Shown here: one piece after another, positions 39,345 to 45,525 of the stretch
Numbering within the stretch: the first letter of the stretch is position 1
Layout: the number at the start of each line of letters is the position of its first letter
The notes under the pieces: generated by a model
What the model was told of the DNA's origin: nothing
The model's database searches: none
What the model saw: only the letters and a program-made list of their open reading frames with translations
Assembly: GCA_027451405.1 (NCBI GenBank)
Contig: DAIDJM010000002.1
Location: 1-64,000, forward strand
Direction of reading: 5' to 3'
Length of the DNA: 64,000 bases
Origin: Acetobacteraceae bacterium
GTDB taxonomy: Bacteria > Pseudomonadota > Alphaproteobacteria > Acetobacterales > Acetobacteraceae
Made by a program: the position numbers and the translations under genes

Positions 39345-41402
39345 ATGAAGGCTCTGAACGTGGGGGTGGCCGAGGTGCTCGGCCGTATCCAGGCCGGCGA
39401 TCGCCACGCCGCAAGCTGGGCCACGGCGCGCCAGGCGCACCCGTCTCCCGAGACCGCGCTCACCGCCTTTCTCGGCTATCTGACCGACGCCGGGGACTGG
39501 CCCGCGCTGCTGGAAATCCTGCAGGCGGCAGCGGCCACGATGCCGGCCGGACGTTGGGATGACGAAGCGCTCCAGGGGCGGCTGCTGCAAGCGCGCGATG
39601 CGGGTGCGCCGGCCGACCTGCTGGTCTGGTGCGAGGCACTCATCGCCGAAATGACCCACAATCTCCCGGTCCTGCTGCATGCCGGCACGCGGCTGCAGCG
39701 GTTGCGGCCCGATCTGGCGGAGGGTCCGCTTTTCGTGGTGCGCGCATTGACGCGGAATTCGCGTTACGATGAGGCCGAGCCGCACGCGCAGGAATTGACC
39801 CGCCGCTTCGCAGATGACTCGCGCAGCTGGCTGGCCGCGGCCGATCTGGCGGAGGCTCAGGGGAACGTCGACGCCGCGCTCGCCGTGTTCGCGCATATGC
39901 GCGAGACTTTTGCGAACCTCGCGGACGGGTATGTCCGGCCACTTGAGCTTCTCAAGAGGCGCAAGCGCCTGGAAGAGGCCGCGTCACTGCTGAAAGCGGC
40001 GCTCGAGGCACGCCCGCAGGATCGCGCGGTGCGCGTCGCGGCAGCGAAGTACTTTGCGGATATTCAGGACCATGAACTCGCCAGCGAGCAATGGCGGGCG
40101 ATTGCGGAAATGGAACCCGGCAATCCGCAATATGCGCTGAACGCGGCAACCGCGCTGATCGGACGCCCGGGCGGCCGAGACAAGCGCTGGCCGCGTGTGC
40201 TCGCGAAGCTCGAGGCTGCGAGCGCGCGCTTTCCAGATCATACCGGCATCCATTCCGCGTTGCTGTCGGCGCTGCGCAACGTCGATCGTGCGGAAGATGC
40301 CGTCCGCCTTGCGCGGGAATGGCAGAACCGCCACCCGGGTCAAATCGCGATCGAGATTGAACTCGCCGAGGCGCTCGGCGATCTCGGCCGCTGGTCCGAG
40401 GCGAGGCGGCTGCTGGACGAATGGCGCCTGCGCGAGCCCGGCTCGGCCCGTGTCGTCACGGCGCTGGCGCGATCGATGAGCGAAACCGGCGATGGGGAGT
40501 CCGCCGACCGTCTGCTGGCCGCGGCGCTTGAGAAGGCGCCCGCGGATTTCGCATTGCATACCTGCCATGGACGGTTGGCGTCCCGCCGCGGTGATTTCGA
40601 GGAGTCGTTGCGCCGCTGGGAGCGCGCGCGGCAATTCCGCCCCGACGATCAGCGAGTCGAGCGGCAGATCAATATGTTGCGCGAGCAACTCGGACTGCCG
40701 GGCCTGGAGACGAAATCGTCCGCCGATAGCGGGCTGTTCGCCGGCTTCATCAGTCTGGGCGGAACGCTCGGGGGCTGCGAGTTCGGTGTCGCGCAACGCC
40801 ATTTCGGCAGCACCGATCTCGGTCTGCTACGCTGGGCGCAGACCAAGGTGGAGCAGCTCCGCGCGGCGTTCGAGCGCGAGTTCGAGGGCGTCGGCGAGGA
40901 ATCCAACACGGTTTTGTCGCTGCGCCGGCGCTCGATCGACGACCAGGAATATGTCACGAGCGACCGCAATTTCGGCATGATCACGCACACTTTCGTGCAG
41001 GTGGAAGACATGCCGGCCGATCGCATGCTGACCCAGACCTGCCGGCGGCTGCGCTTCCTGAAGGGCAAGCTGCTCGAGGATCTGCGCGCGGGCGGGAAGA
41101 CGTTCGTTTTCAAGATCGCTCATCCCACCAGCGACGATGAGATCCGCGCGCTCTTCGCGGCGCTGCGCCGCTATGGCGACAGCGATCTTCTTTGCGTCTT
41201 TCAGGCAGACGATGCGCGTCCGCCGCGTACGTTGCGGGTGGTGGAGCGCGGCCTTTTCGCCGGCTATCTCGGCTATTTCATGGGAAATCCCAATGGCGGC
41301 GTTGGCGCCATCGACCTCGAGGGCTGGAAGTCGCTTGCACTTCAGCTCGCCGCCCTGCCGGACAGCGACCGTTTCGCCGACCGCCTTCCGGCGGCTGCCT
41401 GA
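39345..41402 (+). CDS. TPR-repeat protein with C-terminal DUF1796-like domain
   Basis: A 685-residue protein. Residues about 30-450 are tandem helical TPR-like repeats (for example AALAVFAHMRETFANLADGYVRPLELL and QIAIEIELAEALGDLGRWSEARRLLDEWRLREP). Residues about 465-685 form a separate domain beginning GFISLGGTLGGCEFGVAQRHFGSTDLGLLRWA, with a Cys in GGCEFG and a His in MITHTF. This start resembles DUF1796-type papain-like proteins, but the assignment is tentative. ATG 39345 has GAGGTGAAG just upstream. It lies 36 nt before the FkbH gene, so the three genes TPR-fkbH-ACP form an operon. A scaffold or transferase role on the ACP-bound product is possible. Confidence 0.65.
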   Translation: MKALNVGVAEVLGRIQAGDRHAASWATARQAHPSPETALTAFLGYLTDAGDWPALLEILQAAAATMPAGRWDDEALQGRLLQARDAGAPADLLVWCEALIAEMTHNLPVLLHAGTRLQRLRPDLAEGPLFVVRALTRNSRYDEAEPHAQELTRRFADDSRSWLAAADLAEAQGNVDAALAVFAHMRETFANLADGYVRPLELLKRRKRLEEAASLLKAALEARPQDRAVRVAAAKYFADIQDHELASEQWRAIAEMEPGNPQYALNAATALIGRPGGRDKRWPRVLAKLEAASARFPDHTGIHSALLSALRNVDRAEDAVRLAREWQNRHPGQIAIEIELAEALGDLGRWSEARRLLDEWRLREPGSARVVTALARSMSETGDGESADRLLAAALEKAPADFALHTCHGRLASRRGDFEESLRRWERARQFRPDDQRVERQINMLREQLGLPGLETKSSADSGLFAGFISLGGTLGGCEFGVAQRHFGSTDLGLLRWAQTKVEQLRAAFEREFEGVGEESNTVLSLRRRSIDDQEYVTSDRNFGMITHTFVQVEDMPADRMLTQTCRRLRFLKGKLLEDLRAGGKTFVFKIAHPTSDDEIRALFAALRRYGDSDLLCVFQADDARPPRTLRVVERGLFAGYLGYFMGNPNGGVGAIDLEGWKSLALQLAALPDSDRFADRLPAAA

Positions 41403-41438
41403 TCCGGCCGCGACCGCGCCGAGCCCCACGTACAACGG

Positions 41439-43328
41439 ATGCTGAAGCCGCTTCGCTGGCTGCCCGAAATCCCCGACTGGCGTGCGCAGCTGCGCGCGCT
41501 CGCGCGCCGAGACGGCGATATCTGGCCGGATGCCGTGCGCCTCGCCAATGCGAGGATGGATTTCCTCGCCACCAACGCGCTCGACGAAACAGTCCGCCGG
41601 CGCTGCGGCGCCGCGCCGCCCGCCACCGGAACCAAACCGATCCGGCTCGCGATTCTTGGCGCTTCCACGCTCGCGCATCTGCATGCGGGCATCCGCGTCG
41701 CCGGCCTGCGCCGGAACATCCCGGTCACGACCTACGAGAACGATTACGGCCAGTATTGGCAGGAACTGCTCGATGCGCGATCGGCGCTACATGCTTTCGC
41801 GCCCGACGCGGTCCTCTTCGCCTTCGATGCGCGGCATCTGACGCAAGGTCTGTCTGCGGCAACCGACGCCGCCGGCGCGAACGAAGCGCTTGCCGAAACG
41901 CTCGACCGGATCCGCCGTTGCTGGCGCATGGCACGCGAGGCATTCGGGGCTTTCATCCTGCAGCAAACCGTGCTCGACGTGTTTCCTACGTTGCTCGGCA
42001 ATAATGAACATCGGCTGCCGGGATCGCGTTCGGCTTTCGTCGCTCGTCTCAACGCCGCGCTGCGCGACGCGGCGGAAGAGGACGGCGTCGATCTGGTGGC
42101 GCTCGACGAAGCCGCCCGCCGTGAGGGCATCGGCACATGGCACGACCCGGCGCTCTGGCATCGCTCGAAGCAGGAAGTCACGCCTGCGCAATCACCGGCC
42201 TACGGCGAGCTCGTCGCGCGGCTGATCGCCGCGCGCCAGGGCCGGTCCTACAAATGCCTCGTGCTCGATCTGGACAACACGCTCTGGGGTGGCGTGGTCG
42301 GTGACGATGGATGGGAGGGCATCGTGCTCGGCCAGGGCACGCCGCTCGGCGAGGGGTTCGTCGCAGTCCAGGAATATGCCCGCGAACTCGCGCGCCGCGG
42401 CGTGATCCTCGCGGTCAGCAGCAAGAACGACGCAGCCAACGCGCTCGAGCCGTTCGACAAGCATCCCGACATGCTGCTTCGGCGGGGCGACATCGCGAGC
42501 TTCCGCGCCGACTGGAACGACAAGGCGGCCAATATCCGCGCCATCGCGGACGAGCTCAATATCGGTCTCGATGCGCTCGTCTTCCTCGACGACAACCCGT
42601 TCGAGCGCCATCTGGTGCGATCCGAACTGCCAATGGTGGCGGTTCCCGAGGTGCCCGACGATCCGGCGCTCGTCCCGCAGCTCCTGGCCGATGCCGGATA
42701 TTTCGAAAGCGTCGGCATCACCCAGGACGATCGGGAGCGCGGCGCGCAATATCAGGAAAACCGGGCGCGCGAGCAGCTGCGCGCCGCCTCGACCGATCTC
42801 GAGACCTATCTGCGCGGGCTCGAGATGCGGATGCTGTGGCGGCGCTTCGATCCCGTCGGGCGGCAGCGCATCGTCCAGCTCATCAACAAGACGAACCAGT
42901 TCAACCTCACCACGCGCCGGCACGGCGACGAGGACGTCGCGCGGATGATGGAGGATCCGGACACGATCGGGCTGCAGATCCGCCTGCTCGACCGCTTCGG
43001 CGACAATGGCATCATCGCCATCGTCATCGGCCGGCGCGCCGCGCCGCACGATCTCACCCTCGACACCTGGCTCATGAGTTGCCGCGTGCTCGGCCGCCAG
43101 GTCGAAGCGGCGACCCTCAATCTCGTGGCGGCACAGGCCCAGGCGATGGGGGCCAAACGCCTCATCGGCGAATACCTGCCCACCCAGAAGAACGGTATGG
43201 TGCGAGATCATTACGAAAAGCTCGGCTTCGCGACCGTTCTGCGCGACGAGAACGGCCGCTCGCTGGCGATGCTGGATCTCAGCACCTTTTCACCCATTCC
43301 CACCTTCATCGACGTGACCGAGGGCTGA
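41439..43328 (+). CDS. FkbH-like HAD-IIIC protein
   Basis: A 629-residue FkbH-family enzyme. The N-terminus has an SGNH-like part (RLAILGASTLAHLHAGIRVAGLRR...YENDYGQYWQ). The central HAD domain (about 272-430) has the nucleophile motif KCLVLDLDNTLWGGVVGDDG, SSKNDAANA and FLDDNPFERHLV. The C-terminal part (GIIAIVIGRR...MSCRVLGRQVEAATLN) is GNAT-like. FkbH proteins dephosphorylate 1,3-bisphosphoglycerate and load the glyceryl unit onto an acyl carrier protein; the gene is followed 5 nt later by such a carrier. No polyketide synthase is present, so the glyceryl group may decorate a surface molecule. Confidence 0.9.
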   Translation: MLKPLRWLPEIPDWRAQLRALARRDGDIWPDAVRLANARMDFLATNALDETVRRRCGAAPPATGTKPIRLAILGASTLAHLHAGIRVAGLRRNIPVTTYENDYGQYWQELLDARSALHAFAPDAVLFAFDARHLTQGLSAATDAAGANEALAETLDRIRRCWRMAREAFGAFILQQTVLDVFPTLLGNNEHRLPGSRSAFVARLNAALRDAAEEDGVDLVALDEAARREGIGTWHDPALWHRSKQEVTPAQSPAYGELVARLIAARQGRSYKCLVLDLDNTLWGGVVGDDGWEGIVLGQGTPLGEGFVAVQEYARELARRGVILAVSSKNDAANALEPFDKHPDMLLRRGDIASFRADWNDKAANIRAIADELNIGLDALVFLDDNPFERHLVRSELPMVAVPEVPDDPALVPQLLADAGYFESVGITQDDRERGAQYQENRAREQLRAASTDLETYLRGLEMRMLWRRFDPVGRQRIVQLINKTNQFNLTTRRHGDEDVARMMEDPDTIGLQIRLLDRFGDNGIIAIVIGRRAAPHDLTLDTWLMSCRVLGRQVEAATLNLVAAQAQAMGAKRLIGEYLPTQKNGMVRDHYEKLGFATVLRDENGRSLAMLDLSTFSPIPTFIDVTEG

Positions 43329-43333
43329 CACCC

Positions 43334-43585
43334 ATGAACGCACTCAACGGACATGCCGACATTTATGCGGCGCTGACGGAGATCTTCAACGACGTCTTCA
43401 TGCGCGACGACATGCAGCTGACGCCCACGCTCTCGGCCAGGGATGTGCCGGGCTGGGACAGTTTCAAGCAGATCGAGATCATGGTGTCGGTCGAGGAACG
43501 CTTCGGCATCAAGCTGACGACGAAGGAAATCGACAGCCTGCAGAATGTCGGCGACCTCGTTGCGGTGATTGCAGGAAAGACGTGA
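43334..43585 (+). CDS. Acyl carrier protein, FkbH partner
   Basis: An 83-residue stand-alone carrier protein. The phosphopantetheine attachment Ser lies in VPGWDSFKQIEIMVSVEERFGIKLTTKEIDSL, the canonical D-S followed by helix II. ATG 43334 lies 5 nt after the FkbH stop, so the two are translationally linked. It is distinct from the fatty-acid AcpP by its WDSFKQ form, common in carriers paired with FkbH. It probably carries the glyceryl thioester made by FkbH. Confidence 0.9.
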   Translation: MNALNGHADIYAALTEIFNDVFMRDDMQLTPTLSARDVPGWDSFKQIEIMVSVEERFGIKLTTKEIDSLQNVGDLVAVIAGKT

Positions 43586-43631: not shown

Positions 43632-44177
43632 TCAGAACAGGATGAATCTTGGCGTTGTCGCGCAATAGGCCGCGTAGGCCTCACCGAACCGCTCGCGCAT
43701 GGTTGCCTCCTCCGCGCGCATCTTCACGCCGAGCCCCAGGGCGATGAGCGCGGCGCCGGCCCAGGCGCGCGGGGTGCCTTCGGCGATGGCGGTGCCGAGA
43801 AGCGCGAGCAGCAGGCCGGCGTAGATCGGATGGCGGCAGTGGGCGTAGGGGCCGCTGCGTACCAGCTCGTGGTTTTGTTTCACGGTGATCGCGCCGCTCC
43901 AGTTGCTGCCGATCGCGAGTCGGGCCCAGCTGGCGTAGGCGAGCCCGGCGAGCACGAAGAGCAGCGCCATCGGGTGGAAGGCGGGTTTGCCGCAGCAGGC
44001 ATCGAGACGGGCGAGGCCGAGCGGGGCGACGAGGAGCCAGGCGCCGGCCAGGACCGGGACGCCGTGCCGGGCGCGGGAGGCGAGGGATTCGCGCCGCTCG
44101 GCGGGTTTCGTGCGGGCTGCGAGAACGAGCCAGAGCAGGGCCCAGGCGATCCAGAGGGCGCGGATCGCGTCCGTCAC
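43632..44177 (-). CDS. Isoprenylcysteine carboxyl methyltransferase-like membrane protein
   Basis: A 181-residue membrane protein with about four helices and the ICMT/PEMT-type signature near the C-terminus (ELVRSGPYAHCRHPIYAGLLLALLGTAI and MRAEEATMRERFGEAYAAY), which binds S-adenosylmethionine and a lipid-like substrate. Bacterial members are often of unknown substrate. The GTG start at 44177 overlaps the stop of the GT2 gene (GTGA), placing it last in a three-gene operon with GtrA and GT2. It converges with the ACP gene. Confidence 0.8.
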   Translation of the reverse strand: MTDAIRALWIAWALLWLVLAARTKPAERRESLASRARHGVPVLAGAWLLVAPLGLARLDACCGKPAFHPMALLFVLAGLAYASWARLAIGSNWSGAITVKQNHELVRSGPYAHCRHPIYAGLLLALLGTAIAEGTPRAWAGAALIALGLGVKMRAEEATMRERFGEAYAAYCATTPRFILF

Positions 44178-45109
44178 GGGGGATCGAAGGCGGGCGCGGG
44201 GATCGCGAGGTAGGCGAGGCGTTTCATTTCGCGCCGGCCGCGGGCGACGCTGTCGAGGATCAGGCCGCAGGCGAGCGACAGGAAGGACAGCATCACGAGC
44301 GAGGCGGCGACGATCGCGGTGGGCAGGCGCGGCACCAGGCCGGTGCGCAGGAATTCGAGCACCACCGGGATGCCGAAGAACAGGCCGAGCAGGAACAGCA
44401 GCGCGCCGGCGACGGAGAAGAACGGGATCGGACGTTCGTCCTTCACGAGCATCACGATGAGCCGGAGGATGCGGATGCCGTCGCGGAAGGTGCGGAGCTT
44501 GCTGGCCGAGCCGGCCGGGCGTTCGCGGTAGCGCGTCGGGAGTTCGCCGGCGGGCATGCGCAGCTGCAGCGCGTGCACCGTGAACTCGGTTTCGGTCTCG
44601 AAACCGCCTGCCAGGGCGGGGAAGGATTTGACGAAGCGGCGGGAAAAGATGCGGTAGCCGGAGAGCATGTCGCCGACGCGCTCGCCGAACAGGTTGGAGA
44701 CGAGGCCGGTGAGCACCCGGTTGCCGAAGACGTGGCCGGGGCGGTAGGCGGCGCCGCCGGAAGCGGCGCGGGTGCCGGTCACCATGTCGAGCCGGTCGGT
44801 CAGGGCGAGGGCGAGCATGGCGGGGGCGGCGGCGGCGTCGTAGGTGCCGTCGCCGTCGACGAGCACGTAATAATCCGCGTCGATATCGGCGAACATGCGT
44901 CGCACGACATGGCCTTTGCCCTGCAGGCGCTCGCGCCCGACGACGGCGCCGGCGGCGGCGGCGAGGGAGATGGTTTCGTCAGTGGAATTGTTGTCGTAGA
45001 CGTGGATCGTGGCCTGCGGCAGGGCGGCGCGGAAATCGGCGACCACGCCGGCGATCGAGGCGGCTTCGTCGTGGCACGGGATCAGCACCGCCAGGCGCGG
45101 GGCGGTCAT
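44174..45109 (-). CDS. Glycosyltransferase family 2, polyprenyl-phosphate-sugar synthase-like
   Basis: A 311-residue GT2 enzyme of the DPM1/GtrB type. The N-terminal GT-A domain has LAVLIPCHDEAASIAGVV, HVYDNNSTDETI, GKGHVVRRMFADIDADYYVLVDGDGTYD (donor and metal Asp) and SGYRIFSRRFVKSFPAL. Two C-terminal membrane helices follow (FFSVAGALLFLLGLFFGI; VASLVMLSFLSLACGLI). It probably makes polyprenyl-phosphate-linked sugar. Its ATG overlaps the gtrA stop, and a GtrA flippase would turn the product to the periplasm. Confidence 0.9.
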   Translation of the reverse strand: MTAPRLAVLIPCHDEAASIAGVVADFRAALPQATIHVYDNNSTDETISLAAAAGAVVGRERLQGKGHVVRRMFADIDADYYVLVDGDGTYDAAAAPAMLALALTDRLDMVTGTRAASGGAAYRPGHVFGNRVLTGLVSNLFGERVGDMLSGYRIFSRRFVKSFPALAGGFETETEFTVHALQLRMPAGELPTRYRERPAGSASKLRTFRDGIRILRLIVMLVKDERPIPFFSVAGALLFLLGLFFGIPVVLEFLRTGLVPRLPTAIVAASLVMLSFLSLACGLILDSVARGRREMKRLAYLAIPAPAFDPP

Positions 45110-45525
45110 CGAAACACGACGCGGCGGGTGAGCGTGAAGTTCATGAACATGCCGGCAATGGCGCCGGCCGCGACGGGCAGCACGAGGTGCGCGCGGCAGG
45201 CTGGAACGGTGGCGACGAGAGCGCTGTAAGTGCCGCGGTTCAGCACGAAACCGAGCGAGTTGGCAACGAAAAAGCGGGCCCATTGGCGGTGCGGCGCGTC
45301 ATGGGCGTGGTCGCGGTAGGTCCAGGCGCGGTTGAGCGCCCAGTTGATGGTGACGACGATCGCGTAGGAGACGAGGCCGGCGACATAGGGGCCGAGGGCG
45401 GGCGCGGTCAGCGTGACGATCGCGGTGTCGCAGACGAAGCCGAAGACGCCGATGGCCGCGAATTGGGCGAACTGGCGGAGCAGGCGGCGCTGGTCGGGGC
45501 GGAGGTTGGCGAGCGCCTGGGGCAT
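45106..45525 (-). CDS. GtrA-family flippase-like membrane protein
   Basis: A 139-residue protein with four membrane helices in the GtrA pattern (FAQFAAIGVFGFVCDTAIV, YVAGLVSYAIVVTINWALNRAWTYRD, FFVANSLGFVLNRGTYSAL, PVAAGAIAGMFMNFTLTRRVVFR). GtrA proteins move polyprenyl-phosphate-linked sugars across the inner membrane. It is the first gene of the operon, overlapping the GT2 start by 4 nt. The donor sugar is unknown; the GT-C-like and DUF2142-like proteins in this window are possible users. Confidence 0.88.
   Translation of the reverse strand: MPQALANLRPDQRRLLRQFAQFAAIGVFGFVCDTAIVTLTAPALGPYVAGLVSYAIVVTINWALNRAWTYRDHAHDAPHRQWARFFVANSLGFVLNRGTYSALVATVPACRAHLVLPVAAGAIAGMFMNFTLTRRVVFR

Follow-up and report, generated by a model that had tools for sequence, protein, structure and literature searches.

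A conserved cassette of FkbH, acyl carrier protein, and a DUF1796-related domain as a candidate glyceryl transfer unit in Acetobacteraceae

Three genes at positions 39345-43585 of the window, the 64,000-nt stretch of an Acetobacteraceae genome analyzed here, raise the question of what an FkbH protein and its carrier protein would do beside a TPR protein rather than a polyketide synthase. The TPR, FkbH, and acyl carrier protein (ACP) genes were all located on the plus strand with gaps of 36 and 5 nt, and the ATG of the ACP gene started 5 nt past the FkbH stop codon. The first-pass annotation had given the same coordinates and the same FkbH-ACP spacing, both of which were correct, and its separate Cys/His-containing C-terminal domain (CTD) of the TPR protein was confirmed at residues 451-685, with Cys478 and His548. 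The features of the locus are as follows.

39345..41402, plus strand: TPR protein with a C-terminal DUF1796-like domain, 685 aa
40695..41399, plus strand: CTD, residues 451-685 of the TPR protein, candidate acyl-ACP-dependent Cys transferase
40776-40778 and 40986-40988, plus strand: codons of CTD residues Cys478 and His548, respectively
41439..43328, plus strand: FkbH (HAD-IIIC glyceryl transferase/phosphatase family), 629 aa, with the DxDxT motif at residues 277-281 and the SCR motif at residues 547-549
about 41643-42083 and 42249-43232, plus strand: FkbH_N and the FkbH domain, respectively
43334..43585, plus strand: stand-alone ACP, 83 aa, phosphopantetheine site Ser43 (codon 43460-43462)
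44174..45226, minus strand: GT2, polyprenyl-phosphate-sugar-synthase-like, with a resemblance to AglJ below the cut-off; possible glycan context
45106..45525, minus strand: GtrA/DPMS-type membrane protein (PF04138), beside the GT2

In the window, the cassette is flanked by a glutamine-synthetase-like gene on one side and a type II secretion cluster on the other, outside any large glycan cluster. The GtrA and GT2 pair at 44174-45525 is convergent to the cassette and is a glycan-type neighbor that was absent from the earlier annotation. The absence of a synthase near the cassette, which that annotation had claimed, was upheld, as no polyketide synthase was found in the window neighborhood. A genome-wide scan for ketoacyl synthases (3.37 Mb in 67 contigs, 98% complete) gave one strong match, in a 444-aa, FabF-sized frame. 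Six other matches covered 33-50 residues only, in frames of 396-529 aa, and we read these as thiolase-like. With one credible, FabF-sized ketosynthase, the genome is unlikely to encode a modular polyketide synthase. A FabH-like ring-forming partner of the tetronate type was also absent among the window neighbors read.

We consider that the cassette has about an even chance of being a soluble acyl-activation and transfer unit which decorates a glycan or glycoprotein with glyceryl, passed from FkbH to the ACP and then to the CTD. FkbH would take 1,3-bisphosphoglycerate, form a glyceryl thioester, and attach the glyceryl group to the ACP at its phosphopantetheine arm. Cys478 of the CTD would accept it from the ACP as a thioester, with His548 as the base, and the CTD would pass it to an acceptor, which may be a nucleotide- or lipid-linked sugar (a glycan precursor) or a protein or glycoprotein. 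The TPR superhelix would hold the acceptor or a partner glycosyltransferase. The highest 19-residue Kyte-Doolittle mean among the three cassette proteins was 1.38, with no strongly hydrophobic stretch, and all three are therefore probably cytosolic. Transfer by three proteins without a membrane segment would take place on the cytosolic side.

The identity of the acyl group as glyceryl is suggested by the FkbH family. The window FkbH scored 307.5 bits against TIGR01686 (cut-off, 146.65), and FkbH_N was also present. The FkbH signature (D277, D279, T281, D384/D385, and S547-C548-R549) was kept in 42/42 family members. The window ACP scored 29.3 bits against PF00550 (gathering threshold, 20.8), its Ser43 lies within GWDS, and an ACP gene adjoined FkbH in 40 of the 42 FkbH loci read. 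Residue 327 of the window FkbH is Ser (AVSSKN), compared with Cys (AVCSKN) in 37/42 family FkbHs, which is a weak point of the proposed reading. Characterized FkbH enzymes reportedly hold the acyl group on a Cys, to which position 327 may correspond. FkbH-type domains load more than one C3 unit, and FkbH and the ACP may activate another acyl group, such as lactyl or phosphoglyceryl, which would then be handed on in the same way. Ser327 would fit such a group; however, all catalytic HAD residues were kept and the FkbH score was well over the family cut-off, and we regard this alternative as unlikely. The same genome encodes two further FkbH-like proteins (L008, G000:C46, and L009, G000:C24), with no clear ACP gene found adjoining them.

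The co-occurrence check named by the first-pass annotation was run on 200 genomes of the same family, Acetobacteraceae, with FkbH and CTD profiles, and the idea withstood it, as linkage of the trio and its parts was found in many genomes. Of the 200 genomes, 53 matched the FkbH profile, 59 the CTD profile, and 38 both (Fisher P of 3e-14, kinship ignored). Of the 58 FkbH places, 18 had a CTD gene no more than 3 kb away, compared with about 0.16 expected from density. The full trio of TPR-CTD, FkbH, and ACP was found in nine places (the window, L026, L074, L075, L089, L100, L187/L098, L210, and L214), with differing gene order and orientation. FkbH was also present in 15 of 80 CTD loci chosen blind to context; most of these loci were from Acetobacteraceae, and the three from Methylobacterium/Beijerinckiaceae all carried FkbH. 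Methylobacterium sp. BTF04 and Leaf118 (loci L201 and L215) are examples of strains with an FkbH-linked CTD. In a tree of 117 CTDs, FkbH-linked copies were placed on many branches, with 19 label changes compared with 27.6 when the labels were shuffled; branches with strong support forced at least seven of the changes in FkbH linkage, and the window CTD was placed next to the FkbH-linked CTD of L074. The cassette thus recurs far above chance and is a real unit. Two observations weigh against the proposed reading: many CTDs had no FkbH or ACP nearby, and 39 of the 58 FkbH places had no CTD within 10 kb, a number that is an upper bound because some contigs are short.

These data bear on the explanation that the cassette is a relic or a chance grouping, in which FkbH and the ACP would serve the synthesis of a small molecule and the TPR gene would merely happen to adjoin them. 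The setting of the window cassette, between the glutamine-synthetase-like gene and the secretion cluster, would suit such a grouping, but the same trio in nine places and the repeated linkage on separate CTD branches largely refute it, and we consider it very improbable.

The domain that would carry out the transfer showed no match to a Pfam or NCBIfam family across residues 451-685, and the CTD family seems to be without earlier description. The TPRs of the 685-aa protein cover residues ~130-440; because a TPR match was absent in 3 of the 10 FkbH-linked CTD proteins scanned, what recurs is the CTD and not the TPR part. In an alignment of 87 relatives, Glu479, Gly481, and Arg485 were kept in 87/87, Gln484 in 86/87, Cys478 in 85/87, and His548 in 79/87. 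Among the FkbH-linked CTDs, Cys478, Arg485, and Lys585 were found in 31/31 and His548 in 26/31. The replacement of His548 in the remaining 5/31 counts against the proposed transfer reading, and so do the deviations of the window CTD from the consensus motif, which are a 3-residue insert before Cys478 and Thr-Asp for Glu-Pro at residues 490-491. Among loci L150-L178, one CTD subfamily, from Rhodopila and allies, occupies a conserved locus with neighbors read from sequence as lipA, hfq, and hflX, plus a HAD-type gene, and another comes after genes read as nuoLMN. The CTD protein of L028/L199 also carries GT61 and methyltransferase domains, and the ACP gene that comes next overlaps it by 4 nt.

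The TPR-CTD protein may alternatively be an acceptor scaffold or a docking or regulatory protein with no enzyme activity, and the ACP would then deliver glyceryl to a glycosyltransferase complex. The partner-binding nature of TPR domains, the fusion of one CTD with GT61 and methyltransferase domains, and the loss of Cys478 in 4 and of His548 in 14 of the 117 CTDs all fit such a role. However, the invariance of Cys478, Arg485, and Lys585 in the FkbH-linked CTDs argues against it, and we consider the scaffold role improbable.

The cysteine chemistry proposed for the CTD is suggested by this conservation together with kinship to DUF1796 (PF08795), which is named a putative papain-like cysteine peptidase. 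In hhalign, the CTD profile scored 42.5 against five DUF1796 proteins (probability, 81), compared with 22.7 for the best of 200 column shuffles and 18.4 for the reversed control. The profile alignment paired Cys with Cys and His with His, and the SLGxxC and His motifs were aligned. From these alignments, we conclude that the CTD and DUF1796 share a distant common ancestry. The CTDs fell short of the Pfam gathering threshold of DUF1796; 2 of the 87 gave a match (best E value, 0.047), and the window CTD gave none. An AlphaFold model of the CTD made with the relatives' alignment (pLDDT, 91.4; pTM, 0.88) placed Cys478 at the start of a helix directly after the first strand and His548 in a strand; folding the full-length TPR protein from its own sequence alone left the CTD with pLDDT values mostly of 26-46, which made it unusable. 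Foldseek with the CTD model gave no match at E<0.001, and the CTD profile gave no match to sequences of solved structures. The best PDB match of the model was 2g6t (Z score, 7.7; rmsd, 4.7 over 174 residues), and the next had a Z score of 5.3. 2g6t is an uncharacterized Clostridium protein, and this match is no proof of a papain-like fold, which weakens the case for the proposed reading. We take 2g6t to belong to DUF1919. DUF1919 proteins have been reported from exopolysaccharide and capsule loci (PMC3609815, PMC5901230).

The CTD and ACP genes were also coupled apart from FkbH. In three loci without a nearby FkbH (L023, L199, and L157), the CTD and ACP open reading frames overlapped by 4 nt. 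Such an overlap usually means translational coupling, and we regard it as the most direct sign that the CTD and the ACP act together. One of the three, L023 (G000:C3:34-38 kb), belongs to the same genome as the window and is its second CTD cluster, with the arrangement CTD-ACP-CTD-CTD and no FkbH; the window FkbH could serve this second ACP.

The acceptor is proposed to be a glycan or glycoprotein, and glycan-related genes were found near FkbH in relatives. The neighbors in FkbH loci included a GT2-GT9 fusion in 13 loci and GlcNAc-2-epimerase-like enzymes, and HldD- and HldE-like genes, named as read from sequence, were located near FkbH in three relatives' loci. FkbH-ACP pairs without a CTD sometimes adjoined a known or presumed glycan acyltransferase, either MBOAT or WcbI. 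MBOAT was found beside FkbH-ACP in L096, L101-L103, Rhodobacteraceae SC52, Tistrella, and Sinorhizobium (S. meliloti) pSymB, and on pSymB the FkbH-ACP and MBOAT genes are located beside an RkpR-type export gene. WcbI (PF18588), a putative acetyltransferase of the capsule (PMC4104973), lay no more than 3 kb from FkbH in 6 of 58 places (0.09 expected) and no more than 3 kb from a CTD in 8 of 83 places. On a Niveispirillum plasmid (L232), it stands head to tail with FkbH-ACP. The position of WcbI beside FkbH-ACP suggests that it may take the acyl group from the ACP. WcbI was also considered as a homologue of the CTD, but sequence kinship was unsupported, with an hhalign probability of 0.4 against one WcbI and no PF18588 match in Pfam for the TPR-CTD protein; the two may nevertheless have a fold in common.

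The same neighbors bear on the possibility that glyceryl-ACP is made and used, with the CTD acting as a hydrolase or editor (a thioesterase or peptidase) and the true acyltransferase encoded elsewhere. The name of DUF1796 is in line with this possibility, and the Cys/His conservation suits hydrolysis as well as transfer. However, the trio has no other recurring transferase as a neighbor, and MBOAT or WcbI stands in the place of the CTD at other loci; we therefore give an editing role little weight. The first-pass annotation had proposed the TPR protein as a transferase or an acceptor scaffold. We favor the transferase, as a prediction, because of the cysteine present in 31/31 FkbH-linked CTDs, the distant DUF1796 kinship, the 4-nt coupling to the ACP, and a position that MBOAT or WcbI occupies in other loci; the scaffold is kept as a rival.

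A broader proposal, which we put forward tentatively and with somewhat less confidence than the cassette function itself, is that the CTD is the founder of a group of DUF1796-related, soluble, Cys-dependent acyl-ACP:glycan/glycoprotein transferases, which with FkbH-ACP would make glycerate esters of surface sugars. FkbH-ACP would then be one donor system with MBOAT and WcbI as other possible final enzymes, and the donor of WcbI, too, may be acyl-ACP in place of acetyl-CoA, with which it showed no activity (PMC4104973). If this is true, FkbH, known from polyketide assembly, would enter glycan decoration, the unannotated CTD family and its distant relative DUF1796 would gain a first testable function, and the missing donor of the WcbI inactive with acetyl-CoA (PMC4104973) might be at hand.

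Altogether, the cassette consists of ordinary parts in a conserved, previously uncharacterized combination with a new domain family. The literature searched on FkbH with capsule or polysaccharide, on DUF1796, and on glyceric acid with ACP yielded no description of such a system. In tetronate and methoxymalonyl pathways, glyceryl-ACP is proposed to come from FkbH with a stand-alone ACP, for example, Mad7/Mad8 and Mad14/Mad12 (PMC7489565). In contrast to those units, the cassette has no polyketide synthase and no adjoining ring-forming or extender-maturing enzymes, and it carries the TPR-CTD protein instead. DUF1796 genes on Priestia plasmids sit in glycan clusters, among glycosyltransferases and epimerases; no FkbH was found near the DUF1796 genes read, and the CTDs differ from DUF1796 in their own CEFGxxQR...GLLRF motif and in their TPR or other fusions. 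In the solved WcbI, a Cys that closes the first strand contacts the thiol end of CoA (PMC4104973), which recalls Cys478, placed directly after the first strand in the CTD model. The MBOAT genes adjoining FkbH-ACP in relatives recall the MBOAT-SGNH systems that acylate envelope polymers, such as PatAB and those of alginate (PMC12148441). MBOAT is membrane-bound, with acyl-CoA as the described donor (PMC12148441), whereas the system of the window looks soluble and would use an ACP as the donor.
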